In this document: positions 38,286 through 62,703 of the stretch, piece by piece
Layout of the letters: the number at the start of each line of letters is the position of its first letter
How positions within the stretch are numbered: the stretch's first letter is position 1
Assembly: GCA_021292105.1 (NCBI GenBank)
Contig: CM037866.1
Location: forward strand, 5,850,163-5,914,162
Source: Anadara kagoshimensis
Taxonomy: Eukaryota > Mollusca > Bivalvia > Arcoida > Arcidae
Length of the DNA stretch: 64,000 nt
Direction: 5' to 3'
The notes under the pieces: generated by a model
The model's input: only the letters and a program-made list of their open reading frames with translations
Told to the model about the DNA's origin: nothing
Database searches by the model: none
Position numbers and translations under genes: made by a program

Positions 38286-38967
38286 CTTTTGTGCATAAAA
38301 AAATAAGAATATAAATTACATGAACCAAAAGTTATATAGACCAAAGAATATAAATTACATGAACCAAAGTTATATAGACCAAATATGATTTACTATAAAG
38401 GTGTCATGAATGGTTAAACATTTGACTTAATCATGAAAATTTCTAAATTGCACTATTCCAAAAACAGTACTTAAAAAAAAAAAAAAAAAAAACAGCTATC
38501 ACCAATAAAAAGTAATGATCAAGTTTGAGTTTGACCTCTAAGTTTAACCTGGACTTTGAGATTAAGATTATCAATATGAAATCTGTATCAAGATTTTGTC
38601 TTCAAATGTTGAACAACTGTACTAAGTTTCATTACAATTCATCCATGGATTCAAAAGTTTGAATGGACAGATGCACAGAGCAACAAACAGGAAAAAAATA
38701 AAATGCCCCGGTCAGTCAATCCAGGTGGCATTAAAAAAAACAACACATTTTATGACCATAAAACTGCTGACTTTTCAACATAGTTATAAATTAAATTATT
38801 AAATTAATTATAATAATCTGAATGAAAGAGATTCTATTATGTCAATCTCAATATATATGGCATTATACAATATTTCAAGGTTCATAAACAAAACAAAATA
38901 CTTGACTGCAAATGAATATATATCATATATATATACATACCAGAATCAATATCTGAACACGGCATTA

Positions 38968-39300
38968 CCCCAGTGAAAATGTACTCAAAATTCCAGTGGA
39001 ATTTCCACTGGAATACCAGTGGAAAAGCCACTGGAATACCAGCAGTAAAATTTAACTTTTTCACCAGTGGAAATCACTGGAATTCCACTGGTAAACCAAT
39101 GGAATTGCACTGGTATGCCACTGGAACCCAAGTGGCAGTCCACTGGTAGATCACCAGCATTCCACTGGTATACCAATGGCATTCCTGGTGAAAAAGAGTT
39201 AATTTTACCGCTGGTATTCCATTGGCATTCTGCTGGTATTGCATTGGCATTCCACTGGTATCCCAATGGCATTCCGCTGGTATTCCATTGAGTGGAATTA
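38968..39300 (+). repeat. Left terminal inverted repeat and subterminal CCANTGG array
   Basis: After the 13-bp terminus, CCAGTGG, CCACTGG, CCAATGG, CCATTGG and near variants recur every 8-20 bp, often paired around GAATTC or GAAT as local palindromes (for example TTCCAGTGGAATTTCCACTGG). The array ends near 39,295. Identical arrays start the other two arms (30,896 and 34,934). It is a candidate binding array for an element-encoded protein. Confidence 0.8.
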
Positions 39301-39691
39301 TAAAACTATAAAAACCTTTAAACTTTTGAACCTTCATATAGTTTCATGGTTCTACCTCGCCTATTGGTTACATAGATCTAACTGTGTGTGCCGATGCACA
39401 CATGTACGCAGAGCGTACACCAATAGTTCTTCCCACTTTGTTGAGATAAACTTAAATGAATGCTGTTTTTAAACAACAGATTACACGTATGTCTTGCTGT
39501 ACGTGTCTACCAAAAACTTAACATTGAAACTTAACACACCACCAATGTCGACGAAAAGTTACACCTATGTCTCGCTCTCACTTTTGCTCCTTCATTGCAG
39601 TGAGACAATAAGAAATATCACAAAAAATATAATACTAAGTTGAAATGAAATAGACTTTATCATATAATGATGAGTGAATTAAATCATGAAT

Positions 39692-39804
39692 TTAATGATT
39701 TTTAGTTCTTTTTTTCCTGATTTTGTCATTCACTGCTCTCACGGTGCTCCCCCATATCTGTGTTTTATCAGATTCACTACAGGTGAAATTGCTGAATATA
39801 CAAC
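39692..39804 (-). CDS. BEN gene exon 11 (terminal): end of BEN domain
   Basis: Acceptor rc(CTGCAAAAC), phase 1 in, stop TAA at 39694-39692. Encodes SCIFSNFTCSESDKTQIWGS and then TVRAVNDKIRKKR, the W-x(4)-A(V/I)N-x-(K/C)-R end typical of BEN domains. It is the only one of three copies in the window that stays in frame. Confidence 0.78.
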
Positions 39805-42800
39805 CTGCAAAACAATAAAAAAAAAAAAATAATAAAATAAAATAAAAACAACTATAGAATGTTTGTGAAACATACATATAACCCCTCCTGGGAAATGGAC
39901 CAAATGAAAGACATATACCCCCGCCTGGGAAATGAACCAAAATGAAAAAGATTAACCAAGCAATTCATACAGAACATACAAGTCACAGTGACCTACTTTT
40001 ACCCTAGTGGTGCAGTACTCCCCAAGGTTGACCCACATAAGAAGTCTGATGAAGTGTCTTATAGTTACAGAGAAATGGACCTAAATGCAAATTCTAACTA
40101 AAGTCATTCATACAGAAAATGTAGGTCACAGTGACCTACTTTCACCCTAATGGTGTAGTAATCTTCAAGGTTAATGCACATATGAAGTTTGATGATGAAG
40201 TGTCTTACAGTTCCAGAGAAATAGATCTAAATGCAAAGTAAACCAAAGTCATTCATGCAGAAAATGTAGGTCACAATGACCTACTTTTACCCTAGTGGTG
40301 TAGTACTCCCCAAGGTTAATCCACATATGATGAAGTTTGATGATGAAGGGACTTATAGTTCCTGAGAAACAGACCTCAACACAAAGTCTAACTGAAGACA
40401 TTCAAGCAGGAAATGTAGGTCAGGGTGACCTACTTTTCCCCAGGTGGTGTAGTACTCCCCATAACCTAATCACATATAAAGTTCATGACCAACCAACTTA
40501 TAGTTCTGAGAAATGGACATTAACGCAAAGGTTAACCAAGCTCGGACGGATGAACCCATTGCTATATCCCCTCCGCCAACTTCGTTGGGCGAGGGATAAT
40601 TAACCATTTATATTAATTATCAAACTGATGAACTTTCAGATCAATATCTTTGCCTTTTAAGGACACTAGCTTATATGTGCAATTTAAAATGGAAGACAGG
40701 ACTAAAAGTGAATTGGAACAAAATCCAGATCTCTTGACCAGTACAATTTCGGTATTATATATGACTTAACATCCCACGAATATACTGTTGCACCTCTGAG
40801 AGAAATGTATTTTTAGTAAATCAAATTTTGACCCTTTGAACCCCCCCCCCAAAAAAAAACACAATAAAACTTACTTCTCAAGGCCTCCCTTTTGCTTTCT
40901 TCCATGGGAAGGAGTTTGTGCTGCACGTTCCCATATACACTTATAGAGTTTATTTCCTCCTTACTGAGGATAAACTCTATAAGATTTAAAGCCAACTTTT
41001 CTGCTGACTTTGCTGTCAGTAGACATCTTTGATAATCTACAGCTTTTACCCTAACACCATATCTTGATTCCCCTACATATACCAAAGCTGCAAAAAATAA
41101 TAAAGACTTAAGATCAACAACTTGCCTTAATTTCGAAAAATATACCTCTAAACATACATGTAAGGAAAGAAAGTGTGGAAAACTAATAACAATTTCGTGA
41201 GATTTCTCATTTCTAAGGTTCCAAAACTCAAAAAACTAAGTCAATCAACAGATTTCTCAAACTTTAAACTGTACTTTGTCATAGAAAATAAACATGTCAA
41301 ATATATCATTTGAATATAATTTTGTGAAATTTCTCATTTCTAAGGTTCCATAACTCTCAAAAAACTAAGTCAATCAACAGGTTTCTCAAACTTTAAACTG
41401 TACTTTGTCATAGAAAATAAAACATGTCAAATATATCATTTGAATATTTGTAACCATAAAATGAAAGTGCAGAAAACTGAAAAATTTCTTTAAATATACA
41501 ATTTCCAGTATAAGGGTCATACATGTAACTCTCACAAAACTATATGTATAGGTCAATCAACATTGAACTTTTAACATAAATGGTATCTTGTCTTAACAAA
41601 GATATATAACAAATATTTAAATACCTGCAAGTATAGGGAAAAAAGTGTGGAAAACTCGGGACAGATGAACAGAAGAAAACTATAGTCCACCTCTGATTTA
41701 TGGGGGAGGGGACTAAATTAAAAGACCTTCATTATATAATTAAGACTTACAGGTATCGCTGTCTACAGTCTGGACTTCTTCAATTGATTTTACAGTCTCT
41801 ACAACTTCTTTGCTTTTATTATCTGCAGAAAATGCATAGTATAAATAAAATACTTATGTATATACTTATTTTTTCTCTTCACATTTAGCATTGGTTGGTC
41901 AGGTTTACATAACTTCAAGCTTTATTCAGTTAATATTGAAATTGAACGAGTTTAATTGGTGAAGGAAAATAACATATTTTTAGAAATACTGTTTTCTTGC
42001 ATATGGCAAGCCACAAAACAAGTTAAAGAGAGGTAAAAGAGTATACATCCTGAGCCAAAATATAACATAATACATGCTCTTTACCACTTGCATGTTTCCA
42101 ACCTTTCAAGACTACACAGTAATTTATAAAAGACGAATTAACAAAATTTTTATCATATTTGTGACACTGACAGTGATTTGTCCAAGTTGTTTGTTACAGA
42201 TTTTGAAAAGTATGGTTTAAGCTGTATTTCTATTTATATATTTACCGTCATTGTCTGCAGTTACAGAACTAAATGGCTTCTGAATAGAACTGAATGACTG
42301 TTGGATATCCAAGTCTTTTGTGCATAAAAAAAATAAGAATATAAATTACATGAAAAAAGTTATATAGACCAAAGAATATAAATTACATGAACCAAAGTTA
42401 TATAGACCAAATATGATTTACTATAAAGGTGTCATGAATGGTTAAACATTTGACTTAATCATGAAATTTCTAAATTGCACTATTCCAAAAACAGTACTTA
42501 AAAAAAAAAAAAAAAAAACAGCTATCACCAATAAAAAGTAATGATCAAGTTTGAGTTTGACCTCTAAGTTTAACCTGGACTTTGAGATTAAGATTATCAA
42601 TATGAAATCTGTATCAAGGATTTTGTCTTCAAATGTTGAACAACTGTACTAAGTTTCATTACAATTCATCCATGGATTCAAAAGTTTTGAATGGACAGAT
42701 GCACAGAGCAACAAACAGGAAAAAAATAAAATGCCCGGTCAGTCAATCCAGGTGGCATTAAAAAAAACAACACATTTTATGACCATAAAACTGCTGACTT

Positions 42801-45800
42801 TTCAACATAGTTATAAATTAAATTATTAAATTAATTATAATAATCTGAATGAAAGAGATTCTATTATGTCAATCTCAAATATATATGGCATTATACAATA
42901 TTTCAAGGTTCATAAACAAAACAAAATACTTGACTGCAAAATGAATATATATCATATATATATACATACCAGAATCAATATCTGAACACGGCATTAGGCA
43001 CTTTGGTTTTAATGAGGCCACTGATGCTACAACCGGCAATTTTTGTGATGGAGAAGACATACTGCATGCAGACCCAGATGGAGAAGACATACTGCATGTA
43101 GACCCAGATGGAGAAGACATACTACATGCAGTACCAAATAGTGTTCCTGGCAATGCTGGTTGGTTAAGTTTCTACAAAACAAAAGAAATAAATACGTACA
43201 TGTATATGAACTTAAAAAAACCTATTCTAAAGACATTTTTTCTATGAAATATTTCGATCCTCAAAGTGAATATCATTCTGAATGTTTTACATGCACAAAT
43301 ATATCTGTAATATACATGATGACTTTGTCATGAATCCACCTTCTTAAGATTAAGACTGGTATCAGCAGTTATAAAATATAGCTTGCATATAGCATCATGT
43401 TTCATTTCAAAGTTAATATTCTATCACATACATGACATATGGTTAAAACACTTTTTCATATTTCTACAATTTTACTGTTTTATATATATACCTTGTATGC
43501 TTTCTTGACACAAGTCTTGCAGGCAAGGAAGGCATCTACCATGCTTGTAAGGGTTTCTATCTAGCAATAAAATCCATTTAAATTGGTTTTCAATATGACA
43601 AATTGGTTCATGTGATTATATATTAATAATATGCACTTGTCTTGCCACTTACACATACATGTGTATTTAATAGGGATTTCTTGATATGAGCCAGTAAATA
43701 TTAATTCATCCTATTCCAATGATAATCTGTCATATGTTAACATAAACACTGATAATACTGATGAAATTGTAAATCTGAATGAAACTAGAATTAGTGTCAT
43801 CCATTGGATGATTGATCAATACCCCCGCCCCTTCCCCTCCCTTTAGTTGCACACCTTTAATATGTGGCAATAAGGGTGCAAGAAAGGTTTAGTAAAAATC
43901 TGTCTCATAATCTCTAAGAGTAGTGCAATCAAACACAGCATCCAATCTGCTGATGAAAAAAAAAAAAAAAAAAAAAAAAAAAAGGAGAGTTTGGTGTATC
44001 TTTCCCTTCTGTAAGGCGATAGTACATTACAAACTCAACATTTCATTTATGTTGATGACAGAAGGATGCACGCTTTATCATGACATAATTAAGCCTCACA
44101 TGACTTTGCCAGGTGAGCTAAAAATGAATGAAATCTGACAACTAAAATAATTGTGAAATTTCTATAGCAAGAAATATTTGTGTAAAGTAAAAGAGAAATT
44201 AACAACAAAAAAGTCCAAAACTTACTTTGTTTTCAACTCGAAATAAAACATTTTTTACTTCTTGGTCTCTTGTCATCATTTTTTCTAGATTTTGTGTTTC
44301 AAGCACTTTGCTAGACTTTTCTAGGGAGGTGTGATGACGTTCCTCAGCAAGCTCTCTGTTCTTTTTCTTGTCTGCTGCAGCCACTTTTTTAGCCTAAAAA
44401 CATACACATAATTTTACACATGTTAACATGTTTAAAATTAAGTATTAAATAAATTATCTGAGCCATCGAACTCACATCCTAGAAAGCGTGAATTCTACTA
44501 CCAGACATTGTGAAATTTGTTGATGATTTACACACATTCGGTCAGGTAAAACATTATTAGCCAGATGAATTTTTACACAGACATTATTTGCTCATGTGAA
44601 TTTAATGTGAATTGAGCTTATGTTTTCGGACACTGCCAATTTTTCCTGGCCATAATTTTGAAAGTGCTTCTAATTCATCGGACAGGCAGAGTGAGTGAAT
44701 TATTGTTTTAAGCTGCATCAGCAATATTTCAGCTATTCACGGCCGGACAGGCAGAAAATAATTATTAAAAACAGTCCAGAGACTTGTGCGTTTATAACAT
44801 CGTAATCACCAAGGCGTTTGTATCATTTCAATGTTGTATAGTCTTAATTTAAGCGTCTCGATAACAAAGTTTAGCGACTAAATTGTCAAGGGAAAAGAGA
44901 AATGACCTTGAAAGTATCGATGCGGCATCGGCAAGGAAAAAAAAAAAAAAAAAAAAGCCAGCGGATATTTTCAATAAAATTTTTTCAGTTGGCAAAATTT
45001 TTAATGGTCGGTGGCGCAAGGGGAAACAAAGTATATTTTTATTTTGGCCTAAACTTGTTTGTTTATCTGTCACAAGAATAAATCATACTGGATGATACCA
45101 ATGTGCAATACCAAAAGGTTCATCACAGTCACAAGAGCAATTTCAAATCCAGGTCACATAATTGTTATTGTCCAGCCTCTATATGACTTAAGAAGGAGCA
45201 ATGGAGCAGCACTACCATGGTGCACACAGAACTTGGTAAAAGTTTGTAGTTGACTTCACCAAACTGGTCTCACCAGATAAAGTGTATATTAAAGTTTTCA
45301 AGGGTAAGTAATAACTGTTAGTAAATTATCATGAAGACTTCTGTTTATTTTTGCGAAATACAACCCTGTTTATTTGTGTGAAATACTGGTTGTAGAATTT
45401 TATTTTTTTTAACTGGTTGTAGAAGACCTATTTCAATCTGATTATTTTTTCGCCAGAGCTGTTTGGTTTCTAGCCAAATTTCGCCCAGATGTTTATATCA
45501 ATCTGTTTACTGAAATATTTTCGATATTCTATAAATATTTAAATGAAAAAATATTAATTACGAGGAATTCATATTGGGACAAAGTTATTGCAAACCTGAA
45601 TTATGTATATTTTCGTTACTGTGTCTGCATGTATTGTCAATATTGTGCAATAGCAAATAAAGATCGGGAACAAACAAAGGCATCAATTAATGCCCTTGTC
45701 CCAGAATGAGAGTAATAAAGATTGGGATTACACCTAGCAAATTGTTAGGTCCCGAGCATGGAAGGCTTGATGCTGTAATGTTAATATACTTATTTTAATT

Positions 45801-48800
45801 GGTTTTTATGCCCCGGCCATGAAATGATCGGGGGCATATAGATTTACCCTTGTCTGTCCGTCATTTTGACGTTTTCCGAGGTTTTTCGTTATGGTTTAAG
45901 CTATATCGCTCTGATATTTGGAATGTGGCTTTGTTATAAAGAGTTACAGATCAAGTTTTAGTTTCACCCCGTTGCGGTCATAATTGATGGAGTTATGGCC
46001 CTTTGATAAAATATTGTTTTCCGGGGTTTTTTTTCATTATGCTTTGAGCTATTGCTCTGATATTTGGTATGTGGCTTTGTTGTGAAAAGTTACAGATCAA
46101 GTTTTAGTTCCATGCCCTGCGGCCATATTTGACAGAGTTATGGCCCTTTGATTAAATATTGTTTTCCGGGGACTTTGAGAGTTATGGCGCTTTGATAAAA
46201 TGTTGTTTTCCAGGTACTTTGACTCCCAGCAGGGGCATCAGTGTCTTACAGACACATTCTAGTTTTTTTTTTCATACAACATGTACAAAGAATTAGTGCA
46301 AAACAATGGAAACCATGTGATGCAAATTTTTGTTTCATACCACAATGGCAGAAAAATGTGACATCATCTTACCTCCTTAAGTTCTTACATGTCATGTACA
46401 TGAATGTTCATTGGATGAATAGAGATCTTGCCCTGGGGTCATTTCCAGGCCACATTGGGAATATAAAAGTGATTTTAAACTTGTTCTCCTAAACTATAGA
46501 ATAACCATATATAATTTAAACATGATCGATGCATTCAAATCCACTTTTGGCTTAAGGAAGTTTACTCTTGTGCTCCCTGAAGCTCGTTTAGTAAAATTCA
46601 AGTTCCCAAGAACAGAATAAAAATAAATCAAATGATTTCCGTGAATTTTTGCAACTATTTTTGAATAATGCCCCATATGAATGAAAGGGATATGTACCTC
46701 ATCGCTGATGTCACTTGCTTTCTTTTTCTTGGGCAATTCAGAGCTGTCAAGGTTTTCCTTATCATTGATACTGGTGGTTTTCTTCTTTTTGGCTGGTGGA
46801 TTTGCATCATTTGAGTTTGATTCAATCTCTTTTCTCAACTGCTGTGTTGTCTGAAAGAAAGATTTAGTATCTCAATATTGCTGAAAAAGTTTGTTTTTCT
46901 CAACATTTTGATTTTGTCCTATATAGGTACCCCATTTCAGAACTGAATGTTATTTTGTATGCAGTCAAGAGGCTCTGAGGCTATGAATACATTGGTTCAC
47001 GTTCAAATTAAGTGATGCGAATGTGACCCAGCCCCTTAAATGCTTACAAAATGACATTCAATTTTTATACAGTATTTACATTTTTTAAAATCTTTTTAGA
47101 AATAAAAAATACGTTGCTGGGTTGCCAATGTTATGTAAATTCTCACAAATGTGTAAATTTTTTGTTGTTGGGTCAATTGAAAGAACAGCCAATTGTATAA
47201 AAATACAAAAACACAGATTAAGCATGAAGAAAAGAATTTTTATTAATATCATCATCAACATTTTCATTGTTCTAAAATTGGAATACATGTATTTCATTAA
47301 TAACAAGAGATCCCAGAGGGATCTTGACGCCCACCATCCATTGCTCTTTATTTGATCTATTAAAGAATGATCTTTTCTCTTATCACAAAGTTGCCTGCCA
47401 CCGATATAGTTTTTCACATCGGCAAAAAAAATGTTATCACTACAAGGACCTAAGAGAAATCTGCATACAAAATCTCAGAAAGATCCTTCCAGTAGTTGCT
47501 GAGAAGTAGGGATCACAAACTTTGATTTCAATTTCAAAATGGCCACCTGGTGGCCATATTGTTTTTCTGATCGGACAAAAAAAAAAAAAAAAAAAAAAGG
47601 TATGTTGCCAGTGTTCGAAATTAAGGCTGGTCCCATAGCCCGAAGCCAGTAACTTTTCTGCTGGACCAATAACATTTGCAAGTCTTCCCATATATACTAA
47701 AATAGGAATTATATATGGTTAGACTGAAACACCAGAGTGACATTGCATTGCAGGCATTCCAGTTGTTACTGAATTTTTCAAGATGCTTATTTCAGAATGC
47801 TCGATAACTGTCAATTTCAACAATATTAATAAGTGGTTGTTGGATGATGATGATGATGATGCCCTTTAGTGGCCGGCAAACACTCAAAAAAAGAATTATC
47901 AAATAGAGTGATAAAAAAATTCGTTTTGGTTTTGTTCCGTCTGCCATTCTTGATTTTAGTGACGTTTTCAATTTCACGATGTCATGTAATGTCAAAAGTC
48001 AGCGTGTGGGACAATGTATTCATCAAGCATTGCAAGCATCTTGTTTACCAAAGTTCAAGGGGCTACATTCGAAATGTAAATACATATGGTTGAAACTAGT
48101 GTCGGAGAAGGTAATGAGCATGTTTAGTTTGTCTGATGCTATTCATATATACAACCATAGACTTACCTTGTTATCTTCTGCTGATCTTTTGACAGAGATA
48201 GATTGTTTTCCCTCATCATTGTTTGTATCTCTCTTTGCTTGGAAAATATATAGAAATATTATTGTTATGATTAATTTGTATGGAAGCATTTTGAAATAAA
48301 TAGATGGGTCAGTTCAGGAATGTGGAGGGAACCAGAGTGCCAAGACCATCAACCTGTGACAATCAAGGTGCCATGGCCTGCAGCCATATTGAAAATCTTG
48401 CGGGGTCATTGCCCATTGGATATTATTTTGGTAGAAGACCAACCACCCAGGGAACATTTCTAGTAAGCAAGGTTCAAATTGGCCCAGTAGTTTCTAACAA
48501 GAATTAAAACTAGATTGTTTTTGTGAACAAAAACATATGTCTCCCCCTTGACAAAATCACAAATAAAAGTTATTGAAAAATAACATACAAGTATATGGAG
48601 TATGCATGTCTCAACTTATATGCTATGCAAGAGCTTCAAACAAATATGAAGACTTTCTTGTACATGGAAAGCTGCTAGCAAGCTGCTGACTCAGGGTTAT
48701 GTTAAGTCCAAATTTGCAATTTTTATTAAACATTATTACAGATGGATGCACAAAGGCAAGCCTCGCTATGCCACAAGCTCACATGGCCTTTGACCAGGTC

Positions 48801-50312: not shown

Positions 50313-50679
50313 AAATTTATCACATAGTTGCTGAGGCTGAGCAGCCGACGTTGAACTTGGCGCGAATTTCCCACTTTAACCAATCAGATCTGGTCGCAGT
50401 CATCCGTTGTCCGATGTGTCGGCCGGATATTATCGAATGCCGTGTAATAAAACTAACGGAGTTCAAAGTAAATTTTAAAAAAAGGAGTCAACATATAATA
50501 ATAACAAAGGATTTTTTATCACCATTTATTTTGATTTAAAACGTTAAAACGTTTTCTCGCAATTTACTGTAACGTCAGCGTCAGTTACATGATTGTATTC
50601 ATTCGGCCCCATTGTTGTAGTAGAAGCGTTTTTGTGACTTTCAAACGCGCGTTAATATTGAAATGATTTTGGTAGGGAT
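50313..50679. promoter_or_regulatory. Shared bidirectional promoter of the BEN and transposase genes
   Basis: Only 367 bp separate the two start codons. The region is richer in CpG than its surroundings, with GGCGCGAA near 50359 (E2F-like) and a CCAAT box in AACCAATCAG at 50380-50384. No clear TATA box lies in the expected place. The compact head-to-head layout suggests that one promoter drives both transposon genes. Confidence 0.6.
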
Positions 50680-51517
50680 ATGTCTTGGGACCATTCCGAC
50701 TCCAGTAGTCCTACAACGAGCAGTTCTGATGAAACCGATGATATTGACGACAGTTCAGATTCAAGGAAAAGTATTAATCCTCAAAAGAGGAAAAAAAGGG
50801 GAAAATACAAAAGAGCTTTACACTATGGATTCGATAAAGGACGATCTTACTATCATAATATGCCATGTGAAAGTGATAAAAATCAAACAAAAAAACCTTG
50901 CCCTAGTAATTCGACTGAAAATGTCGAATTTTTAGACCAACAGAATGACTTGACGTTTATGCATGATCATGATGATGTCGACAATGATGGGGAAATGCAA
51001 AATTATTCTTCATCTTCACTCACGTCCAATGAAAGTGAATTTAGTGATACCAATGACTCGATAGACATATCTAATACGTCAGAATCAGATTTTGCCAATA
51101 GTTCAGAGTTGGGAAGTTTCACATCATTTTCTGACTCTGATGACGATCAATCTTCGGGATTTAGGCAGCCACTGTATGAAAATAGCAGGCAAACTGTGCA
51201 TAGTTCATATACCCTTATAATGCTTTTTGTGATGAAACATTCTTTGTCAAGAGATGCCTTTTCTGACCTATTGAATTTGATTTCGTCACATCTCCCAGAA
51301 CCTTCTAAATTCACAACGTCTGTTTACAAGGTTAAAGAAACATTGAAAAAAGGCACAGGCTTCAAAGAACCTGTTATTCATTATTACTGTGGAGGTTGTC
51401 AAGAGTACCTACATGAAGACAAAACCTGTGAGAAAGTAATTTGCAAGAGAAATGACTCCAAAGTTGAAGAATTTTATGACTTGCAAATTTTGGACCAATT
51501 GAACAGTTTATTTAAAG
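50680..51517 (+). CDS. Transposase exon 1
   Basis: ATG 50680 (MSWDHSDSSSPTTSSSDETD). Long Ser/Asp-rich, probably disordered start with a basic patch (PQKRKKRGKYKRAL). Then the first conserved block LIMLFVMKHSLSRDAFSDLL and the Cys-rich YYCGGCQEYLHEDKTCEKVI. Donor GTAATT at 51518, phase 1. An alternative, unspliced reading would end at a stop at 51601-51603. Confidence 0.8.
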
Positions 51518-54500
51518 GTAATTTTATTGACATTAAGGTTGAAACGTTTAGCAAATTTAGTAAAGTGTACACGCAAATCATTAAACGAAATGATTCCGTT
51601 TAAGAGTCTAGTAGATTGCTCACTCCGGTAGTGCGATTCTGAATTCGACAAAAGTCAGACACATATATCTCATTTTAAACAGTTGCAATTTTTCTGAATT
51701 TGAAATAAAACTGTGCTCTAGTGCATAAAGAAGCTTTATATTATTTGAAGATGAATAAAATAATAAAATTGTGAAAATACAGATGAAATAAATTTCATAC
51801 CTTTGTGCACAGATACAGGTTTTAATAGAAATCCATTTGAAATAAAAAACACGTATCTATTCCCGAGCATCTCAACTAGATGCCACAAGAAATAAAATAA
51901 CGATATTCACACGTTAAAAGTCCTAAAATGTGAAGAAACAGTAAGACAGATTCAATCGCGCTGAATGAAAATTTGCATATGATAATGGACTGAACAAAAG
52001 GGTAATTACTGCAAATTGCCCATGTAAAATCTTGTATAAATTATAAAATATTTGATATGACCTTTAAGATTCAATACAAAAATCAACATTCAGCGAATAC
52101 TTAAGTAAACATTTACGTTTATATTATAAAAATGTAACTCAAAACATCATGTCCCTTTGTTGGGCCCAATAATCATGTCTGACCGATATACCAGAGCATG
52201 AGTTTTAATATGCATATAACAACATGTTGTTTGCCAAATTCAGAATGTTTGTTTACATTATTAAACTAAGTATTTTTCTTTTTTAAGTCTAGAACTTGTA
52301 ATTTTTGTCGCTTGTGGCATCTAGAGATATTAAGGATTATAACCATCATGTAAGTGTTATCTCATAAAAATATGTATTAATACCTGTACCTGTGCACAAC
52401 ATTATATAACTTTTCATTTACATGATCTTTAACTAGATCATACATGTATTAGCTTCAGATTAAACAAGAAATTTTATTGCGTCATATTCATAGTGTTATG
52501 CATACACGTATTTAAGTAATGCCTGTATGGATAAATTTGACTTTTGGAAATATAAAAGGAAATCCGGCCAGATTTGATTTTTTTCCCTTGCAGATGACAA
52601 CTTTGTCAAACTGATTCAACAGCACAAAACACCCAGAAGACCTGGATTCATAGCAGATATTGTTGATGGTTCAGTGTATCGAAAAGTTCTTCACGACAAT
52701 GCTAAAGACAGCTGTGAAACCAAAGCAGATTTTAATTTGACTTTTACAATGAATACAGGTAAATTTAAAGATTTATGGAGTACACAGGAAAAGTTGCAAC
52801 GTACGTTTTTCATTCGTTGTTAAACGGCTGAAAAACAGCTGAATAGTACCACACCTGCAATACATCCGAACAAATTTGATAAAAAAAATTTAACGTTTGA
52901 AATCCCAAAAGCTACCCACCCGTGGACGCTTAACAAAGAAAAAAACTGGTGCATGGCCTTACGTAAAACGGCTGTTTCACAGGTTGTCCTATGAAAAAAC
53001 GGACGTTTAACGCACGTTGTTCTAAACTGATGAAAAACATATGTTGAAACTTTTCCTGTGTAGTGATGAAACAAATTGAAAGCCAGTCGCTGAATACATA
53101 GCAATTTTGATTACGATTTGACAACAGACCTTTGGAAATTGAATTAATTGCAATTAATTACGGTACATTTTCTGATGTAGTTGAATGTAATGTGTCAAAT
53201 TGACAAGGTTTCATAATGAATTATAGCTAAAAGGGTTGGCTTCATTTGGGAAGGATTTATGGTGATCTTACAACTTGTATATACGATTATCAGGACATAA
53301 AAAGGTCATCTGCAGCCATTGTAAAAGAATTTAGTGTTGAAAATCTTATAACCATATCTACAGATCGAGCGGGGAGTGGGGGATATTAGTCATTTTAATG
53401 ACAATCTCTTGTTAGATTCTCATCCCCGCCCAACCCAATTTTTTAATTTTTGTTTTTGTTTTAATTTACGTAATTTCTGCTCCGTTTCCGTTTTCCGATT
53501 ACCTTTCGTCATGTCAGAAGTTTATAAATGTAAGTAGAAAAGCATGTACACAATCTATGAGTAGTTGTTATAAACTGAAAAATTATGATGTTACCACTCC
53601 TGTACCAAATAAAATCCTCCCACCTGCCCCATACTTTTTGTCAAACCTGGATGAGAATCTAAAAATTAAGTTGAATTGGCCTAATGGTTTCAATCCTAAT
53701 TAAGTCTCTTATGTGCATGGCTTTTTTTATGTATAAAAATCTATATACTGTAATAATTATTTTTTAGATGGCGTATCACTTTTCTCATCATCAAAGAAAG
53801 GAAGTCTGTGGCCAGTGTATTTGGCAATTAATGAACTACCCATTACATTAAGGTAATTTGTTTGCATTCAAAATGATACTTCTTTAAATAATGTCTCTGA
53901 ATTAGCTTTCTGTATAGCACAGTACATGCATTGAGGATTACCTAATGCCGCATATATTTTGTTATATAATTACCTTAATGTATTATATTTGTATGGACAC
54001 GGGGTATTTCTATTAGATGTTGATATATTATTGGATACAATTAAGCCATATTGAAAATCTGGAAGGTCATCTGATAAAATTTTGGTATAGGACCATCTAA
54101 GAAGCAATCCTGCCAAGTTTAGTTCAAATTGGCCCAATATCTCTGATGAGAAGAGGAAAATGTCATGCTGTCTGTCTCTGTCCATTAACATTTAGTCCTA
54201 CAGTTTTTAAAAGAATTTAATGAAATGTGGCAGGCGTGTTTGTAATGATCTGACAGTGTGTGTGTGTGTGCACATTATTAATTCCTGATGCTGCAAGTAT
54301 TCAACAGAGTTATGGCCCTTCTTGAGCTTATGTGAAACTTGTGAGCTGATAACTAGTCCTACAGTTTTGAATGCCTGTGCAGTGAGGTTAATTAAATTAG
54401 TTATGTATGTCACCTTTAGCATGACTGAATACTGTTAACATGGAAGTACTTCCATTTATACAGGTGAATAAAGCAGTTATGTTTTGATATGTAATATTAT

Positions 54501-57500
54501 ATTATTTGCTTAATTGTGATGTCTCTCCTGTTACTTTATTTCAATATTGAACCTTTCTTTATTTTTGCAGATTTACAAGGAAATATTTATTACCATGTAT
54601 GTTGCATTGCGAAGTAGAGAAACCAAACATGCTGACATATTTGTCACCACTGATGCAGGATTTACAATGTCTACATCAAACTGGTATCAGGGTCAACACT
54701 ACAAATGGGAAGCTGTTGGTGAAAGCACGTTTGATAGCGGTAGCAACTGACCTCCCAGCTAGGGCATTAGTCTTAAATATGAAACAGTTCAACGGGAAAT
54801 ACGGCTGCAGCATTTGTTTGGATGAAGGAGAATGTCCTCCAGGAAGACCATTGTTAAGATTTTATCCATTTCGCACAGCTTTCAGTGAAAGGACCCATCA
54901 GTCAATGCTTACAGATGCAAATGAAGCTTGCAGAACAGGAACTGCAGTAAGTAATTGATATATGCACATTTTTTTCTTTCAATGGGACTGGGGTACATTA
55001 AAATGTGTCTGTGTTACTTCCAGTATATTACATATCATCTTGCCTGAAACAAACAACAAATATGCTTTGTATTAGAAAATGAAAATATATATATGGCATG
55101 GTGTGGCGTTCGTCCGTCCGTCAGTCCGTAAAACTTTATCTTCTCCTCTGAAACCACCAGGTCAGTATTGACCAAACTCGGTATGGAAGGTCCGTTGGTG
55201 ACACAGATTTGAAGTTATGCCCGGTGACTCCACCTGACATCCAAGATGGCCGCCTTTACTGAAAATAGCAAAAACCAATAAATGGCCAAAAATCTCTTAT
55301 TTCATAATCAAGTTGGCTCAGATTTGAAATGTAAAAAGCATTTCACATATAATACAGGTTTTTCTGAGATACTTTTTTGTTTTCCAGATTTTAGACAATT
55401 GTACAAATAAGATGCCTTTAGAGCCACATATTTTAAAAATCTTCCGGTTTAATTTAAACGGATTAGGTAGCATAGAATAAAAATTTTGTCGCGTTACTCC
55501 ACCTGTCATCCAAGATGCTGCTATTACTAAAAAATAGCAGAAACCAATAAATGAGCAAAAGTTTGCTTGTTGAGCGTTACAGGCCCAATTGGGCCTCTTG
55601 TTTGTATTAGGAATTTTTGCAATCCTTCTACCAGTGTGCAGGTGCAGGGTATTGAGCATGCTGACTAAGTTCTTTCAGTACCATTAAATCAAATACCAAT
55701 GAAAATGATTGTAATGAAGTTTCCAATTCTTGTAGGTAAAAGGAATAAAGGGAGCATCTGCATTAATGGTCCTTAGTTATGCTGACTTGCCAAAATTTTT
55801 TGTCATTGACTGGATGCATGGTGTTCTGCTAGGGGTTACCAAGGCTCTTATGACATTATGGTTGAATAGTAAATACAAGGACAAAGATTTCTTTATTGGC
55901 AACAAGGTAACATTTATTTACTCTGTAGAAGATGGTAGGCCACATTCCACCAGTTTGTTGTGTGATTTTTGTTATTATGTTCTAATGTCAGTTTTTGAAT
56001 GACTTTTGTAAATACATGTATTTACGAAAAATCACAAATTTTTTTGTTGTTTTAAAAAATTTTTTGCCCCTGCCATGAAATGGTCGGGGACATATAGTGT
56101 TTGCTCTGCGTCGGTCAGTCTGTCCGTCTGTTCGTGTCCATCACACCTTGGTTAGACTTTGCGTTTAGGTCCATTTCTCTTGAACTGTAAGTCCTTTCAT
56201 CATCAAACTTAGTATGTGGATTGATTTTGGGGAGTACTACACCACCAGGGTAAAAGTAGATCACTTTGACCCATATTTTCTGCTTGAATGACTTTGGTTA
56301 GACTTTGCATTTAGGCCCATACCTCTTGAACTATTAGTCACTTCATCATCAAACTTCATATTTGGATTTACCTTGGGTAGTACTACACCACTAGGGTAAA
56401 ATCAGGTCATGAATTATATATATTATATTTATATTATAAAAATGTAACTCAAAACATCATATCCCTTTGGGCCCAATAATCACGCCTGACCAATATGCTG
56501 AGAATGAATGTGCCAGGTGAGTGATACAGGCCCTTTGGGCCTCTTGTTTTTCTGTCAGCAGCATGGTCAACATTAAGTTTTTACTTTTTAACTCCAATGT
56601 TCAGTTTTGGGGGACACAGGGAGACATATAATTACATGTAATTCTTGTTATATTACAGACCACATTATTGAACAAGAGACTAATGAATATAAAAATTCCA
56701 GACTTTATTTCAAGAAGACAAAGAGGTGTTGATGAGCATACACATTGGAAAGGTAAAATTTATGCAGCTGAAATGTATTTCATTCACCACTTTCCACTAT
56801 GTATCCATTAGTTAGTATTTATTTATAATACACACAAAACTGTATAAAAGGCAATTGTGGTAAAATGAATATGTGCTCTTGGTGTGTTTGAAATGCAAAA
56901 AAAAAAAAATAAATAAAAAAAAATAACTCGCTTCTGAACATGTTGAAAACTGTAACTTGCCTAATAAATAACACATAGACATTTGAGGCAACTGATAATG
57001 TAGGATAAACTTCCAGCACAAAATTGAAAAGGGCCTAATAAAATAAAGACCAAATTTTAACTACTGAGGAAATTTTAGAATGTTAAGAATTAGTTGAGCT
57101 TATCTCTGGTTTGATTGGAGATGTTACTGCGAGATCCAACTGTTGTTACTTTTTTCACCTGATTTATAAGACCCTTAAAGTTAAGATATAAAATACATGA
57201 AGAAAGATAATAATGATATAACCATGACATGTTCTGTATATCTAGACTTGCTTATGCAGGACCTTATTTATTTCAGCTTCGGAATTCAGGGAATGGTTGC
57301 TTCATTTTTCAGTTCCAGTATTACAAGGAGTCTTAAAATCATATCCTTTTGTGCATTATCTTCTTTTGGTGACAGCAATGTCAATTTTGACCAAAGAAGA
57401 AATTACACTGGAAGAAATTGATGATGCCGAACAAATGCTACTGGATTTTTGCAAATGTTATTCTAGTATATATGGTAAGTTTAACAATTTATAATTTCAG

Positions 57501-60329
57501 TATATTACATGTTTTTTGGAAAGAGTAGTAAACGTAGATTGTATTTGAATGATATTAGTTTTTTTTAGCCCATTTAGTATTGTACAACTTCACATAATAG
57601 CGTGCAACTTCACGACCAATGCTAACAGAAGATAAAGTAAAATTAAACTTACAGGTGTTATATATAAAAGTTAATGAAACATGATGATATCTCATTAAAC
57701 AAAACCCTGCATTTAATGTATATTTAAAGTGAACCATATTCTAATCTGACAAAACATCCAAGTAAGATACCATGTCTTGATAATGTATTTGTACTTTCAA
57801 TGTTTTTACTTTTTATTACAGGTATGACTGCACAATCCATGAATCTGCATCTTCTTCGACATCTTGCCAATTTTACAAGACTTTATGGACCATTGTTTTG
57901 TTTCTCCTTATTCGGATTTGAATCGATGAATTCATTTTTGAAAAAAATGGTTCATGGGACTAGACACATTAACAGTCAGGTAATATACTGTACTCAAATA
58001 CTCAAAACTTGTATTCCACTTCATTTACATGATGATATCTCATGAAACAAAAACCTTGCTTTCATGTTATTAATTAATGTATATTTAAAATAAACCATAC
58101 TAATCTGTATATACATGTACCCGATGCCATGTTGGTGTCTTTTTTGCCAATCATAGTTGAATGAAGACATATCATTTATTGACAGACTAATCACGGTGAC
58201 ATTTTTTTTTCTGTTTCTTTGTCCTGAATTTCCTTCATGTCTGGAGCACCACCGACAAAGTAACTTGTATCAAATATTCAACATAAATCATAGTCTAGAA
58301 ATTTACTATCAGTCTGTATTTTAAACAAATACATATATTATAAGTTATAAAATTTGAAGTGGAAAGACAGTCCAAAAAAAAATCCAACCACTACAGAATT
58401 TTTTCACATTTTTCTCAGTTTGTGACGTTTAGCCATAAGGGTTGTTTTGTCTCGGACTGGCTCAAATAATGTATAGGATAAGAATAGAAAAGAAAAAAAA
58501 AAAAAACAAATTTAAAAAAAATGCCACAAAGACCAGAATTTTAATCAAGTCAATCCATGTTCAGTGCATGCTGTGTCATTTTTTGTAAAATGCTTATTTT
58601 AACCATTATTTTAACCATTCATTCTGGGACCCAACTTATAGATGGGTTTGACCCCAATCTTTATTTCATACTTTCCGGGACTCGGACACACTTTGTGTCT
58701 TCATTATTCCCAATCTTTATTAACAACCATTCTACATTATTACACACACACACAAGACAATATTTTCATTGTACATGTATTAATAATTTTCTATTGGTGG
58801 AGGGTACATATTACTCAAATGGGGGGGGGGGGGATTTGAATGAAGTCCAGCATGGGAACTATGTGCTACATGCATGTAAATCCTTGGGTATCTTATTCAA
58901 CTATTTTAGCTAACAATTACCTTAAACCTTATTGCATCAATAACTCTGCATGGTCAGAGTTTCAGAAACCATTAGCCAAGGAAGTAATACAAAGTACAAA
59001 CACACCATTTGGAAAACATACCTAAAATCCAGGTTGAGTTCATCCATGTTGTGACTATTCCATATATTTGGCGTTATATCCCTTTTCAAAAAAATCTGAT
59101 TTAAATTTTGCTGCCGGGGGGCATTAATGTCTGTAATTCATGTCTTACAGGCACATCTAGTTTTAATTTGATTTTTCATTTTATTTTATACGTGTATATA
59201 TGTCTTGTTATTTAGGTCGGTTTTGCAGTTATAATGTCGAAGAAATTGCCAAGCTTTATAAAACAGTTGTCCAACATCACAGTGGATCAAAATATAAAGC
59301 GTCTGACACTTCGCCTTGGTTCCAAATTTTTGACGTAAGTGTTATATTACACATTTTATTGCCATGGTAATGGGGAAAGATGAAGATCTGTTTATCCAAA
59401 ACTGTTCAATATTAATGTAAACCTGTGTATAGATACATCTAGGCGAGTAGACCAGACTCCAGGCAAAAGTAGGTCACTGTGAACTGAATATCATGCTTCC
59501 TTCACTTTGGTTCAATTTTACTGAATTGTCTCCCCAAGTACACGTACTTGGAGAAAATGTACCCTTATTTACATGAGTAGGTCAGCCTCCTGGCAAAAGT
59601 AGGTCACTGTGACCTACTTTTCATGCGTCATTGACTTTGGTTCAATTTGCACCAAGTTGTTTGTCACTGTTTGGTCAGAGAAAATGCATCTTTGAGATGA
59701 GAGAATCTCGGGCAAGTATTTCGTGAGGCGAACTTGGTAACTGTTGATTACCCTATGTTTTAATATAAAAGATTCTTATAAGATACATTTTTATTTTATA
59801 TTATTAGAGAGGATGAATTACATACAGACAAAATGACAACTCCACTGGGAAAAGCAAAGAAATTGATGATTGGTAATGAAATTTTGAGCTGCTGTCACCA
59901 GAAATGAAAAAAGAAAATTTATCATCATTTATGAGAATTCAAAAAGGAAACTCAGTATTTTATGGAAATGAGTACAAACAGGCAAAGACACGGAATTCCA
60001 ACACTGTTGTATATAATGATGGTATAAGGGAGATTTACGGTACCATTACCAGTTTCATAAATGTGGGAAGCAGGATGTTTGCTGTAATGCAAAATTATGA
60101 AACATTGCCTTTTACTGTTGGAATTACAGTCAGCAGTGCAATTGAAAATTCAAATTTGAAAGATTACCTATGGAAAAAATTGTGTCCACATATGGTACAA
60201 GTAATAAAAAAATGTACTGATAAACACCTTGTACCTGTGGAAAACTTGAAAAGGAAGTGTTTATTGTTGGATGCAAACAAAAACACTATATACATCAGCA
60301 AGCCACCAAATCTGGTTGAACATGGTTGA
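50680..60329 (+). CDS. tnp2/CMC-family DDE transposase (whole gene, 10 exons)
   Basis: Exons 50680-51517, 52594-52758, 53768-53852, 54571-54946, 55736-55906, 56659-56752, 57277-57474, 57822-57979, 59216-59334 and 59808-60329 join in phase. With one T added to the T-run at 59882-59885 the total is 2,727 nt (908 aa). Seen: acidic Ser-rich N-terminus; HYYCGGCQEYL with four Cys (zinc-ribbon-like); the NTG-D-GVSLFSSSKKGSLWPVYL block; TDLPARALVLNMKQFNGKYG with C-S-I-C; FFVIDWMHGVLLGVTK; and LFGFESMN. Asp (54749), Asp of DWMH (55808) and Glu of FESMN (57920) fit the D-D-E triad, including the D-x-x-H around the second Asp typical of CMC transposases. The enzyme cuts and rejoins DNA at the element ends. 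Neighbour: the BEN gene, divergent. Confidence 0.83.
51518..52593 (+). other. Transposase intron 1
   Basis: AT-rich; nothing recognised apart from short words (gggcccaataatca.g.ctgac near 52,165) that recur near 56,470 in intron 5. Confidence 0.4.
52594..52758 (+). CDS. Transposase exon 2
   Basis: Acceptor TTGCAG, donor GTAAAT. Encodes DDNFVKLIQQHKTPRRPGFI, then ADIVDGSVYRKVL and ADFNLTFTMNTG. The DI-DG-Y and NL-x-x-T-x-NTDG pattern is characteristic of this transposase family. Confidence 0.85.
53768..53852 (+). CDS. Transposase exon 3
   Basis: 85 nt, phase 1 in, phase 2 out. Encodes DGVSLFSSSKKGSLWPVYLA and INELPITL, the conserved 'S-S-x-W-P-x-Y-L-x-I-N-E-L-P' block. Intron 2 (52,759-53,767) contains nothing recognised. 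Confidence 0.85.
54571..54946 (+). CDS. Transposase exon 4: first catalytic Asp
   Basis: Acceptor TTTTTGCAG, donor GTAAGT at 54947, phase 2 in, phase 0 out. Encodes RFTRKYLLPCMLHCEVEKPN, then MLTYLSPLMQDLQCLHQTGI, then VATDLPARALVLNMKQFNGK and YGCSICLDEGECPPGRP. Asp 54749-54751 in T-D-L-P-A-R is the likely first catalytic residue; C-S-I-C is probably metal binding. Confidence 0.87.
55080..55615 (+). mobile_element. Non-autonomous repeat in transposase intron 4
   Basis: Starts with 'tggcgttcgtccgtccgtcagtc' and 'cttctcctctgaaaccacc', words shared with 18,150-18,350 and 24,490-24,560. It ends 'gagcgttacaggcccaattgggcctcttgttt', the palindromic 3' end of the tandem-core family but with no array inside. 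Confidence 0.55.
55736..55906 (+). CDS. Transposase exon 5: second catalytic Asp (DWMH)
   Basis: 171 nt, phase 0. Encodes VKGIKGASALMVLSYADLPK, then FFVIDWMHGVLLGVTKALMT. D-W-M-H (55808-55819) matches the second-Asp D-x-x-H signature. Donor GTAACA is slightly weak, and a read-through version would continue to a stop near 56,000. Confidence 0.87.
56050..56550 (+). mobile_element. Non-autonomous repeat in transposase intron 5
   Basis: The start 'gcccctgccatgaaatggtcgggg' is a hairpin followed by 'gtcggtcagtctgtccgtc'. Two units of about 120 bp follow (gactttgcgtttaggtcc, acttcatcatcaaactt, ggggagtactacaccacc), then 'caggtgagtgatacaggccctttgggcctcttgttt' at the end. This combines the 5' end of the 45,810 family with the 3' end of the 18,091 family. 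Confidence 0.55.
56659..56752 (+). CDS. Transposase exon 6
   Basis: 94 nt, phase 0 in, phase 1 out. Encodes TTLLNKRLMNIKIPDFISRR and QRGVDEHTHWK, the 'I-x-x-P-x-x-I-x-R-x-x-R' segment between the second Asp and the Glu. Intron 6 (56,753-57,276) has an A-rich run and a short word (tctctggtttgattggagatg) matching the 53-56 bp repeat of intron 3 of the other gene. Confidence 0.83.
57277..57474 (+). CDS. Transposase exon 7
   Basis: 198 nt, phase 1 in and out, donor GTAAGT. Encodes ASEFREWLLHFSVPVLQGVL, then KSYPFVHYLLLVTAMSILTK and a helix rich in Glu. The 'W-K-A-S-E-x-R-x-W-L-L' junction with exon 6 is typical of the family. Confidence 0.85.
57822..57979 (+). CDS. Transposase exon 8: catalytic Glu
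   Basis: 158 nt, phase 1 in, phase 0 out. Encodes GMTAQSMNLHLLRHLANFTR, then LYGPLFCFSLFGFESMNSFL and KKMVHGTRHINSQ. Glu 57920-57922 in F-E-S-M-N, followed by 'G-T-R', is the likely third catalytic residue. Confidence 0.87.
57980..59215 (+). other. Transposase intron 8
   Basis: A G-run at 58,820-58,833, a CA run at 58,744-58,753, and a tail of the GGGGCAT-type repeat at about 59,115-59,160 (gggggcattaatgtctg, cttacaggcacatctagt). No gene. The 118-codon frame at 58,557-58,913 has no recognisable content. Confidence 0.45.
59216..59334 (+). CDS. Transposase exon 9
   Basis: 119 nt, phase 0 in, phase 2 out, donor GTAAGT. Encodes VGFAVIMSKKLPSFIKQLSN, then ITVDQNIKRLTLRLGSKFL. Hydrophobic helix after the catalytic core. 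Intron 9 (59,335-59,807) holds short gtaggtcactgtgac words of the repeat family at 39,965. Confidence 0.78.
59808..60329 (+). CDS. Transposase exon 10 (terminal), apparent frameshift
   Basis: Acceptor TTATTAG, phase 2 in. The first part (EDELHTDKMTTPLGKAKKLM) runs into TGA soon after 59,885 because of the T-run 59882-59885. One base on, the frame is open (ELLSPEMKKENLSS to a TGA at 60327-60329) and carries a plausible C-terminal domain (YGNEYKQAKTRNSNTVVYND, YGTITSFI). A homopolymer miscount is the simplest explanation. Poly(A) signal AATAAA at 60489-60494. Confidence 0.72.
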
Positions 60330-61150
60330 AAAGAAAAATCTCACTACAGAATCTATTAATTTCTATTTCATTATTTGATACCCAAACTTGGTCATGTTAC
60401 CTTTTTAGTGACAGTTGCTGCCAGGGGCATATGTTATTGTGTTTCACAAACACATTTTGTTTTTAAATCTTTTATAACAAGAGTTCAAAATAAATACATG
60501 TTTACTTTACATCAAGGGTAACACCTCAGCTGACATTGTTTTTCTTGAGGTGACAATATGTACTGTCAGATAACAGTTATGGTATGATTACAGTTATCTC
60601 CCTTATATTCCATATTACATGTATATCATCATTGAGTAGATAATCTATTTTCTTGTGTTTTTTTTTTGTGCTTGCAGAAACTGTACTTGCCAAAATTATG
60701 TTGTTCAAAATTTTGAAATTTCTCAAAACAGGTTTGTTTCCGCAAGCAAAGCACTCATTAGCTGGAACAAGATCCAAATGCTTTAGGAACGTTGGGTTAA
60801 CTTGTATTCATAATGATTGGGCTTAACATTTATTTCTTTCAAATTTTTGGCTCCTAATGTCACCGATTAGGAATTTATTTTCAAAATATGTGCATATACG
60901 GCCAAATTCAGCAGGTAATTTTTGTTGCGTGATTTACAATTATGCAGTTAATGATATATATATATACTATTGAGAAGTCGAAAATAGTATTCTGTTTCAT
61001 TTCAAAAGGTCTTTATAAAAGGAGCAGCAACAGTGGTGAAAATGCGCAGGAGGGATAGATTAAATATGAAAGTATTGAAATTTAACAGTAGCAAATTTGT
61101 TAAAATATCTTGAGTAAATAAATATATCTTATATTGGAATTAATTTGGTA
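60330..61150. other. 3' flank of the transposase gene
   Basis: AATAAA at 60489-60494 is a good poly(A) signal. Near 60,420-60,465 there is a worn 3' end of the GGGGCAT repeat (gggcatatgttattgtgtttcacaaacacattttgtt). Nothing else is recognised before the right subterminal array. Confidence 0.45.
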
Positions 61151-61159
61151 CGTATTGGA

Positions 61160-61500
61160 TATTTAAAACCATGATTCCAGTGGAATGTCACTGAAATATT
61201 GCTCATTGAAATTAATTACTGCATGCTTATGAATTTGTATGATTCCAGTGGAACACCACTGGATTATTGCTCACTGGAATTTCTCTGGAAGTTAAGTCAT
61301 TGATTCCACTGGAATTCCACTGGAATATTATTCACTGGAATTTCTCTGGAATTTTGAACCATAATTCCAGTGGGATTCCACTTGAGCACTTACAGTACCA
61401 CTGGTATACCAGTGGAATTTAAAATTCCATTGAATTCCAGTGGAATTCCAATGGATTCCAGAGGTATTCCACTGGAATTCCAATGCTATTTTCACTGGGG
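61160..61500 (-). repeat. Right terminal inverted repeat and subterminal CCANTGG array
   Basis: Dense CCAGTGG, CCACTGG and CCAATGG motifs, many around GAATTC, from about 61,170 to 61,485. The array then ends with TATTTTCACTGGGG. The last 13 bp are the exact inverse of the left end; inside that, the two ends share motif type but not exact order. Confidence 0.8.
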
Positions 61501-61502
61501 TA

Positions 61503-61647
61503 GGCACTTTGGTTTTAATGAGGCCACTGATGCTACAACCGGCAATTTTTGTGATGGAGAAGACATACTGCATGTAGACCCAGATGGAGAAGACATACTA
61601 CATGCAGTACCAAATAGTGTTCCTGGCAATGCTGGTTGGTTAAGTTT
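61503..61647 (-). pseudogene. BEN exon 7 of the host copy, interrupted by the inserted element
   Basis: It begins KLNQPALPGTLFGTACSMSS and is cut at the TA where the complete element is inserted. It has two 30-bp in-frame repeats where the inserted copy has three, so it is distinguishable and not a simple assembly echo. Confidence 0.8.
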
Positions 61648-61970
61648 CTACAAAACAAAAGAAATAAATACGTACATGTATATGAACTTAAAAAAACCTA
61701 TTCTAAAGACATTTTTTCTATGAAATATTTCGATCCTCAAAGTGAATATCATTCTGAATGTTTTACATGCACAAATATATCTGTAATATACATGATGACT
61801 TTGTCATGAATCCACCTTCTTAAGATTAAGACTGGTATCAGCAGTTATAAAATATAGCTTGCATATAGCATCATGTTTCATTTCAAAGTTAATATGTATC
61901 TATCACATACATGACATATGGTTAAAACACTTTTTCATATTTCTACAATTTTACTGTTTTATATATATAC

Positions 61971-62039
61971 CTTGTATGCTTTCTTGACACAAGTCTTGCA
62001 GGCAAGGAAGGCATCTACCATGCTTGTAAGGGTTTCTAT
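61971..62039 (-). pseudogene. BEN exon 6 of the host copy
   Basis: 69 nt, same borders and frame as 43,492-43,560. Part of a gene that is split by the insertion. Confidence 0.7.
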
Positions 62040-62703
62040 CTAGCAATAAAATCCATTTAAATTGGTTTTCAATATGACAAATTGGTTCATGTGATTATAT
62101 ATTAATAATATGCACTTGTCTTGCCACTTACACATACATGTGTATTTAATAGGGATTTCTTGATATGAGCCAGTAAATATTAATTCATCCTATTCCAATG
62201 ATAATCTGTCATATGTTAACATAAACACTGATAATACTGATGAAATTGTAAATCTGAATGAAACTAGAATTAGTGTCATCCATTGGATGATTGATCAATA
62301 CCCCCGCCCCTTCCCCTCCCTTTAGTTGCACACCTTTAATATGTGGCAATAAGGGTGCAAGAAAGGTTTAGTAAAAATCTGTCTCATAATCTCTAAGAGT
62401 AGTGCAATCAAACACAGCATCCAATCTGCTGATGAAAAAAAAAAAAAAAAAAAAAAAAAAGGAGAGTTTGGTGTATCTTTCCCTTCTGTAAGGCGATAGT
62501 ACATTACAAACTCAACATTTCATTTATGTTGATGACAGAAGGATGCACGCTTTATCATGACATAATTAAGCCTCACATGACTTTGCCAGGTGAGCTAAAA
62601 ATGAATGAAATCTGACAACTAAAATATATTGTGAAATTTCTATAGCAAGAAATATTTGTGTAAAGTAAAAGAGAAATTAACAACAAAAAAGTCCAAAACT
62701 TAC

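Follow-up and report, generated by a model that had tools for sequence, protein, structure and literature searches.

Does an animal transposon carry a DNA-binding partner for its transposase, as plant En/Spm elements do in TnpA, which binds their subterminal repeats? The question is raised by a 64,000-nucleotide stretch of the genome of the bivalve Anadara kagoshimensis (GenBank assembly GCA_021292105.1, contig CM037866.1, positions 5,850,163 to 5,914,162; the whole stretch is called the window below). A 22,533-bp element at window positions 38968-61500 holds two divergent multi-exon genes, one for a transposase of the tnp2 family and one for a protein with a candidate BEN domain, and an earlier note had assigned the TnpA role to the latter. 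Our analysis makes it likely that the element is a large, recently active cut-and-paste transposon of the animal TRC/CACTA type, with a BEN partner that would bind palindromic arrays near the element ends in the manner of TnpA. The pairing of the two genes is observed, while the function of the BEN protein is an inference. The pairing recurs in related elements of this genome, so the protein is probably part of the machinery for jumping and not a passenger.

The element and its ends

The exact 13-bp terminal inverted repeats (TIRs) and TA flanks reported in the earlier note were found again when both ends were re-read. Identity between the TIRs (CCCCAGTGAAAAT) stops after the 13 bp. In addition, the unoccupied target GCAT-TA-GGCAC is readable in the element's own BEN exon, with its TA at 42995-42996, and this paralogous empty site is proof of the insertion. 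The target rule is a 2-bp target-site duplication (TSD) that does not require TA, since the outer flanks of the outermost of three nested copies share GT, which rules out a TA-only rule. With letters for families of elements (A is that of the window) and C-numbers for contigs of the genome, the TSDs seen are TA, TA and GT in the nest on C10, TA and TT in family B, and TA in family D. The termini begin with CCC, namely CCCCAGTG in the window (family A), CCCAGACG in family B and CCCTGTCGA in family D, and the imperfect TIR of family G reads approximately CCCCTGC.

Pairing of the two genes across families

The genome searched (1.115 Gb, 36 contigs) gave 23 profile matches to BEN (PF10523) and 88 to tnp2 (PF02992). 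A tnp2 match lies within 20 kb of 14 of the 23 BEN matches, against 0.07 expected. These pairs comprise nine copies of family B, three of family C and two of family D, sorted into families by their scores and frames (equal or nearly so) and in part by DNA, and do not include the window's family A. Since they are copies of three families, the 14 pairs are not independent, a binomial figure overstates the case, and the proper unit is the family.

The earlier note had named repeated occurrence of both genes inside the same TIRs as support for its claim, and within this genome such recurrence is found, in other families and copies: all 14 pairs are divergent, and elements with both genes could be read from TIR to TIR in family B (C4:54130534-54148276, 17,743 bp, TSD TA; C6:40600488-40618251, 17,764 bp, TSD TT) and family D (C8:41016548-41027322, 10,775 bp, TSD TA). 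Both genes thus lie between TIRs in A, B and D, and they lie side by side in four more families. In family A, the two genes have their first coding exons together at 7/7 places among the matches listed, and the ends found (at least five left and at least six right) all come from copies with these genes or their remnants. No TIR-to-TIR copy of family A with the transposase and without the BEN gene, the kind of copy that the earlier note expected to speak against the pairing, was seen among these ends.

The pairings in families E, F and G were each read at one locus, and their support is weaker to fair. The family E locus on C17 has a BEN domain of the A type (42% identity) 9 kb from a tnp2 match of 27.8 bits, and the family F pair is located at C9:22.27 Mb. 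Family G has eleven tnp2 matches of equal score, and the single locus read shows both the N-terminal domain (E 1.3e-6) and the BEN domain (E 4.7e-22) with our own profiles. Clusters of BEN and tnp2 genes were also observed at C14:66.48-66.65 Mb and 69.22-69.39 Mb, both with families A and B and the first also with an E-type BEN.

The partner protein and the transposase

As the earlier note described, two divergent multi-exon genes lie between the TIRs, and their start codons are 367 bp apart. The complete, phase-matched exon chains that it also claimed stand for the BEN gene, with phases intact over 1413 nt, and do not stand for the tnp2 gene, which has a frame break in its last exon. Both sibling copies of the nest differ from the window element at the break position, and the idea that the break proves the family dead was dropped for this reason.

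Three parts make up the partner protein: an N-terminal domain, a stretch in the middle that by eye looks charged, and the C-terminal BEN domain. In a PDB search with the window protein, BEN chains of BANP were the top three of four matches (E 0.1-0.14), and a two-sequence profile of families A and E gave BANP at E 0.0017-0.0018. The N-terminal exon matches the partner of family B with 51% identity (E 3.4e-12) and that of family F with 43% (E 4.5e-7). The C-terminal domains of the B, C and D partners are BEN by Pfam, that of F reaches 23.3 bits against a cut-off of 23.2, and a profile of B, C, D and F together with locus L003 finds the BEND6 chain at 4.6e-9 and the Insv chain at 1.3e-6. The BEN assignment of the earlier note is therefore upheld by the BANP matches together with the N-terminal homology to partners whose BEN domains reach Pfam level, and we take the window domain to be a divergent, BANP-like BEN domain.

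Structure prediction of the 70-residue BEN exon (single exon) gave a predicted local distance difference test (pLDDT) score of 67.8, and Foldseek against PDB returned 42 matches with a best E of 1.7, none of them BEN. The N-terminal exon folded poorly (pLDDT 47.6), and its profile gave nothing convincing in PDB and Pfam, with no Pfam family above cut-off and a deacetylase as best PDB match (E 0.02). A tRNA-Leu (caa) called by ARAGORN at window positions 49323-49396, within a BEN gene intron, is probably a tRNA-derived short interspersed element, judging from its surroundings.

Transposase_21 (PF02992) was called by Pfam on the window transposase with 43 bits (cut-off 28.6). The residues named as catalytic (D in NTDG, D in DLPA, CxxC, DxMH and E in FGFESMN) do not vary across a six-row tnp2 alignment. 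The same motifs line up in a twelve-row alignment, in which family F is too short for FGFESMN. A scan of viral contigs with the six-row alignment gave 19 pattern matches, none of which was confirmed as a relative.

Subterminal arrays

Next to the TIRs of family A lie arrays of short palindromes. The left 340 bp and the right 345 bp hold 10 copies each of their core CCASTGG, the 21,850-bp interior a single one. Each of the other BEN families has a motif too, specific to the family and in most of them palindromic: ACCATGGT in B and G, TTCATGAA in C, GTTCATGAAC in D, GGGATCCC in E and words like GTTCAAGAAC in F, to be compared with TTCCASTGGAA in A. In A, B, C, D and G the arrays are present at both ends, and so also at the one remote from the gene starts; in E and F they were read on the BEN side alone.

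Palindrome content was compared with 300 dinucleotide shuffles, in regions picked for repeated words. The count of odd (3+1+3) palindromes in family A is reached by 0/300 shuffles, at the left end as at the right. Counts of even 6-bp palindromes at the two ends are reached by 0 and 5 of 300 shuffles in B, 0 and 3 in C, 0 and 0 in D, and 0 and 5 in G. The repeat of family H, which has no detectable BEN and was picked likewise, is not palindrome-enriched (79 and 201 of 300). Families B and G, which share a motif, have the highest BEN identity (46%), while their transposases are 43% identical, against 45% for B-C and B-D. The motifs of B, C, D and G all have CATG at their core; according to the published accounts, NACC1 recognises CATG motifs (PMC11472053) and Insv binds the palindrome TCCAATTGGA as a homodimer (PMC6911014).

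Nesting and exchange of copies

The earlier note overlooked that both flanks of the element are parts of two further copies. Three copies of the element are nested at a single TA, with the window element (X3) as the innermost, and the whole three-fold nest covers C10:5881058-5950034 (window part 30896-64000). The leftmost 4.03 kb stands three times in a row (30896-34933, 34934-38967 and 38968-42996) and is followed by the rest of X3. This one TA is the site of both internal junctions, and the outermost copy, X1, is flanked by the GT duplication. Tandem duplication or an assembly artefact was rejected as the source of the flanking repeats, since there are differences between the copies, and the outer TSD and the right junctions lie where nesting would put them.

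Over the right part, the nested copies differ by 0 to 2 substitutions per approximately 14,500 bp, and such near-identity speaks for recent activity or exchange. The divergence is uneven, with X1 and X3 differing at 10/4,012 positions in the left part, 24/3,864 in the first part after the site and 0/14,510 in the rest (24/3,864 against 0/14,510, Fisher p 5e-17). Such divergence does not correspond to one age and points to exchange of sequence between the copies after nesting. We read the nest as a single self-insertion followed by exchange between copies, and consider site preference less likely. On C11 there is a second array with three right ends; two of them have this same TA flank, and the outermost is flanked differently. 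The innermost copy of the C11 array is truncated within a 0.7-kb insertion that is present in X1 and X2 (window coordinates 65453-66148, locus L010, and 84647-85342, locus L012) and absent from X3; with its CAGTGCTTCAGATTGTT inverted ends it resembles a small non-autonomous DNA element.

In BEN exon 7, an in-frame tandem repeat (43040-43171, of SMSSPSGS type by eye) adjoins the nesting site, and the sibling alignments are interrupted there. On C14, a family B BEN/tnp2 element starts in BEN exon 7 of a family A copy (C14:66584407, position 5407 of locus L038), approximately 130 bp from the self-nest site; it was read at this junction alone. Elsewhere in the window, a tandem array of approximately 145-bp units (18626-19884) is about 80% related to another at 24992-25579. 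The features are collected in Table 1.

Table 1. Features of the element and of its nested copies (window coordinates).
Feature	Position	Strand	Remarks
Left TIR, CCCCAGTGAAAAT	38968..38980	+	13 bp
Right TIR	61488..61500	-	Exact reverse complement of left TIR, 13 bp
TA TSD	38966..38967 (left copy), 61501..61502 (right copy)		2 bp
Left subterminal array	38981..39307		Odd palindromes, TTCCASTGGAA type
Right subterminal array	61158..61487		Same palindrome, TTCCASTGGAA type
BEN partner gene	39695..50312	-	11 exons, 1413 nt in frame (471 aa), then TAA; GT-AG junctions
BEN gene exons	50312-50099, 49101-49030, 48237-48167, 46850-46698, 44393-44226, 43560-43492, 43171-42970, 42314-42246, 41822-41751, 41087-40875, 39804-39695	-	
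N-terminal domain exon	50099..50312	-	Domain also present in the partners of families B, F and G
Exon with first part of BEN domain	40875..41087	-	Remainder in 39695-39804
Unoccupied TA target in BEN exon 7	42995..42996		Insertion place of the element in its two siblings
tnp2 transposase gene	50680..60329	+	10 exons
tnp2 exons	50680-51517, 52594-52758, 53768-53852, 54571-54946, 55736-55906, 56659-56752, 57277-57474, 57822-57979, 59216-59334, 59808-60329	+	
Last transposase exon	59808..60329	+	Frame break near 59,875 in the window copy
X1 (outermost sibling), left 4.0 kb	30896..34933	+	Remainder beyond the window, to window coordinate 99872
X2 (middle sibling), left 4.0 kb	34934..38967	+	Both flanks of the element are sibling parts
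X2 remainder, start	61501..64000	+	Runs on to window coordinate 80660

Role of the BEN protein

We propose that the BEN protein, as a dimer or oligomer, would bind the palindromic arrays at both ends and bring the element ends together, and that it would load the transposase onto the CCC... TIRs, in the way that TnpA serves TnpD in En/Spm. When bound next to its own gene, the protein may in addition modulate expression of the element.

Several observations weigh against this proposal. Pfam BEN (PF10523) was not called on the window protein at E<=1, nor on the domain alone at E<=10, nor on the family E protein, and the match between the BEN profile of A and E and that of the other families is weak (hhalign probability 11.5%). 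Even 6-bp palindromes are not enriched at the left end of family A (236/300 shuffles; right end 2/300), enrichment in family E is marginal (18/300), and family F has mixed words in spite of 0/300 for even 6-bp palindromes. The motifs of families C and D are related and their BEN domains rank second in identity (36%), but their transposases are also the closest (56%), so that their motif sharing is not separate evidence. Over six families BEN and tnp2 identities show a weak correlation, not significant in a Mantel test (57/720 permutations).

Lastly, the BEN-tnp2 pairing is common, not universal. The claim that a BEN protein goes with the transposase extends to families B, C, D, E, F and G and is not borne out in family H (tnp2 of 815 aa, eight matches of equal score), where no BEN was found by profile, Pfam or PDB search in 15.0 of the 17.7 kb read around one copy, the remaining 2.7 kb being the transposase stretch, which was left out of the BEN profile runs. 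Family H may use a different partner; its partner region seemed BEN-like by eye, a suggestion that was given up when no profile, Pfam or PDB match backed it. Subterminal repeats of the ACCAGGCGTAA type and other open frames upstream were observed in this family (C1; loci L056, L068 and L069). The survey of partners left out the aligned families of tnp2 open reading frames C10_904, C3_931, C11_751, C2_663 and C11_918.

The BEN protein could instead be element-encoded and act mainly as a regulator of the divergent genes (repressor, activator, insulator or anti-silencing factor), outside the transposition complex. The known BEN proteins in the accounts of PMC6911014 and PMC11472053 are chromatin and transcription factors, and the short distance between the gene starts would let a single control region serve both genes. 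The arrays are, however, found at both ends in five families, the far end included, as recognition of ends predicts. The regulator view also overlaps with a TnpA-like role, as TnpA is credited with both functions in PMC1636069. We regard a mainly regulatory role as rather unlikely, although it is the most plausible of the alternatives.

A captured host gene, carried as a passenger with no part in transposition, seems improbable to us. Large CACTA elements can carry pieces of host genes, and nine of the 23 BEN matches have no tnp2 match within 20 kb, which also limits the pairing from the BEN side. Two of the nine have a tnp2 match at 30 and 47 kb, which is not divergent or belongs to another copy. 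C18:15225487 and C15:37100708 resemble, in score and frame, copies of B and C in which the tnp2 match was lost or never shown, and some of the others may be host genes. On the other hand, the same divergent arrangement is kept across families that have diverged strongly (27-56% tnp2 identity among A, B, C, D, F and G), and the N-terminal domain is common to the partner genes of A, B, F and G, a recurrence hardly expected of a passenger.

Equally improbable is a BEN protein that picks target sites, as suggested by the three copies at an identical TA and the two C11 right-end junctions sharing a flank, since other insertions differ in flank or TSD (GT in the outermost C10 copy, the C11 and C14 flanks, TA and TT in family B) and one self-insertion with unequal exchange yields the same layout with the uneven divergence seen. 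A BEN protein that binds the arrays and acts with the transposase remains our preferred reading.

Comparison with known systems

The element is best read, from its sequence, as a member of the animal TRC branch of the CACTA (En/Spm) superfamily. Animal TRC elements, as DeMarco et al. present them (PMC1636069) for SmTRC1 of Schistosoma mansoni and its Aedes and Tribolium relatives, have Transposase_21, TIRs starting with CCC and 2-bp direct repeats at their ends, and the window element shares all three. The TRC elements given there have sizes of approximately 4.7, 5.2 and 9.2 kb and a single predicted Transposase_21 open reading frame, with transcripts alternatively spliced into different proteins, whereas the window element has 22.5 kb and a second, divergent gene; the term "BEN domain" is absent from the text of that description. 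Held to a strict definition of CACTA elements (CACTA termini and a 3-bp TSD), the element falls outside by its CCCCAGTG termini and its 2-bp TSD.

In common with plant En/Spm it has a transposase of the tnp2 family, a second, putatively DNA-binding protein, and repeats at both ends. It differs in the two divergent genes, the BEN domain, the mostly palindromic motifs and the 2-bp TSD. The TSD of plant CACTA elements is given as 3 bp (PMC4158355), and TnpA and TnpD of En/Spm are described as products of one transcription unit through splicing (PMC1636069). Set beside Insv, BEND6 and BANP, the partner likewise has a C-terminal BEN domain (B, C, D, F and L003 match BEND6 and Insv, A and E match BANP) but is encoded by a mobile element and has an N-terminal domain with no Pfam family. 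A recurring accessory gene, for other proteins, is also reported from fungal transposons with TET/JBP dioxygenases (PMC12730594) and from KolobokP with a homing endonuclease (PMC9587614).

DUF4806 is called a BEN subtype in PMC11075544, with reference to Pan et al. 2023. It numbers 69 and 54 in two Hydra genomes and 0 to 6 in other cnidarians, and the table with these counts also lists transposase domains (PMC7642931). This expansion is a lead for finding the pairing beyond the present genome. DUF4806 gave 0 matches in the Anadara genome and 0 in the control genomes as well, which is no sign of absence.

A more distant and doubtful thought is that the BEN partners of tnp2 elements form an old, diverse DNA-binding class co-evolving with the arrays, and that Insv and BEND6 were domesticated from such proteins. 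If so, the binding of short palindromes by host BEN proteins would be explained, and mobile elements would be a possible source of a DNA-binding domain of chromatin. The elements also offer up to seven natural pairs of protein and motif from which the DNA choice of BEN domains might be learned.

A transposon that pairs tnp2 with a BEN protein was not found described among the open-licence papers listed for the topic (Repbase not covered). Animal TRC/CACTA elements are described, as far as the published account extends, with one transposase open reading frame, and the recurring BEN partner with its matched arrays gives a concrete candidate for the part of TnpA. The BEN partner is the new part, and the CCC TIRs, the 2-bp duplications and the Transposase_21 transposase are as in animal TRC/CACTA elements.

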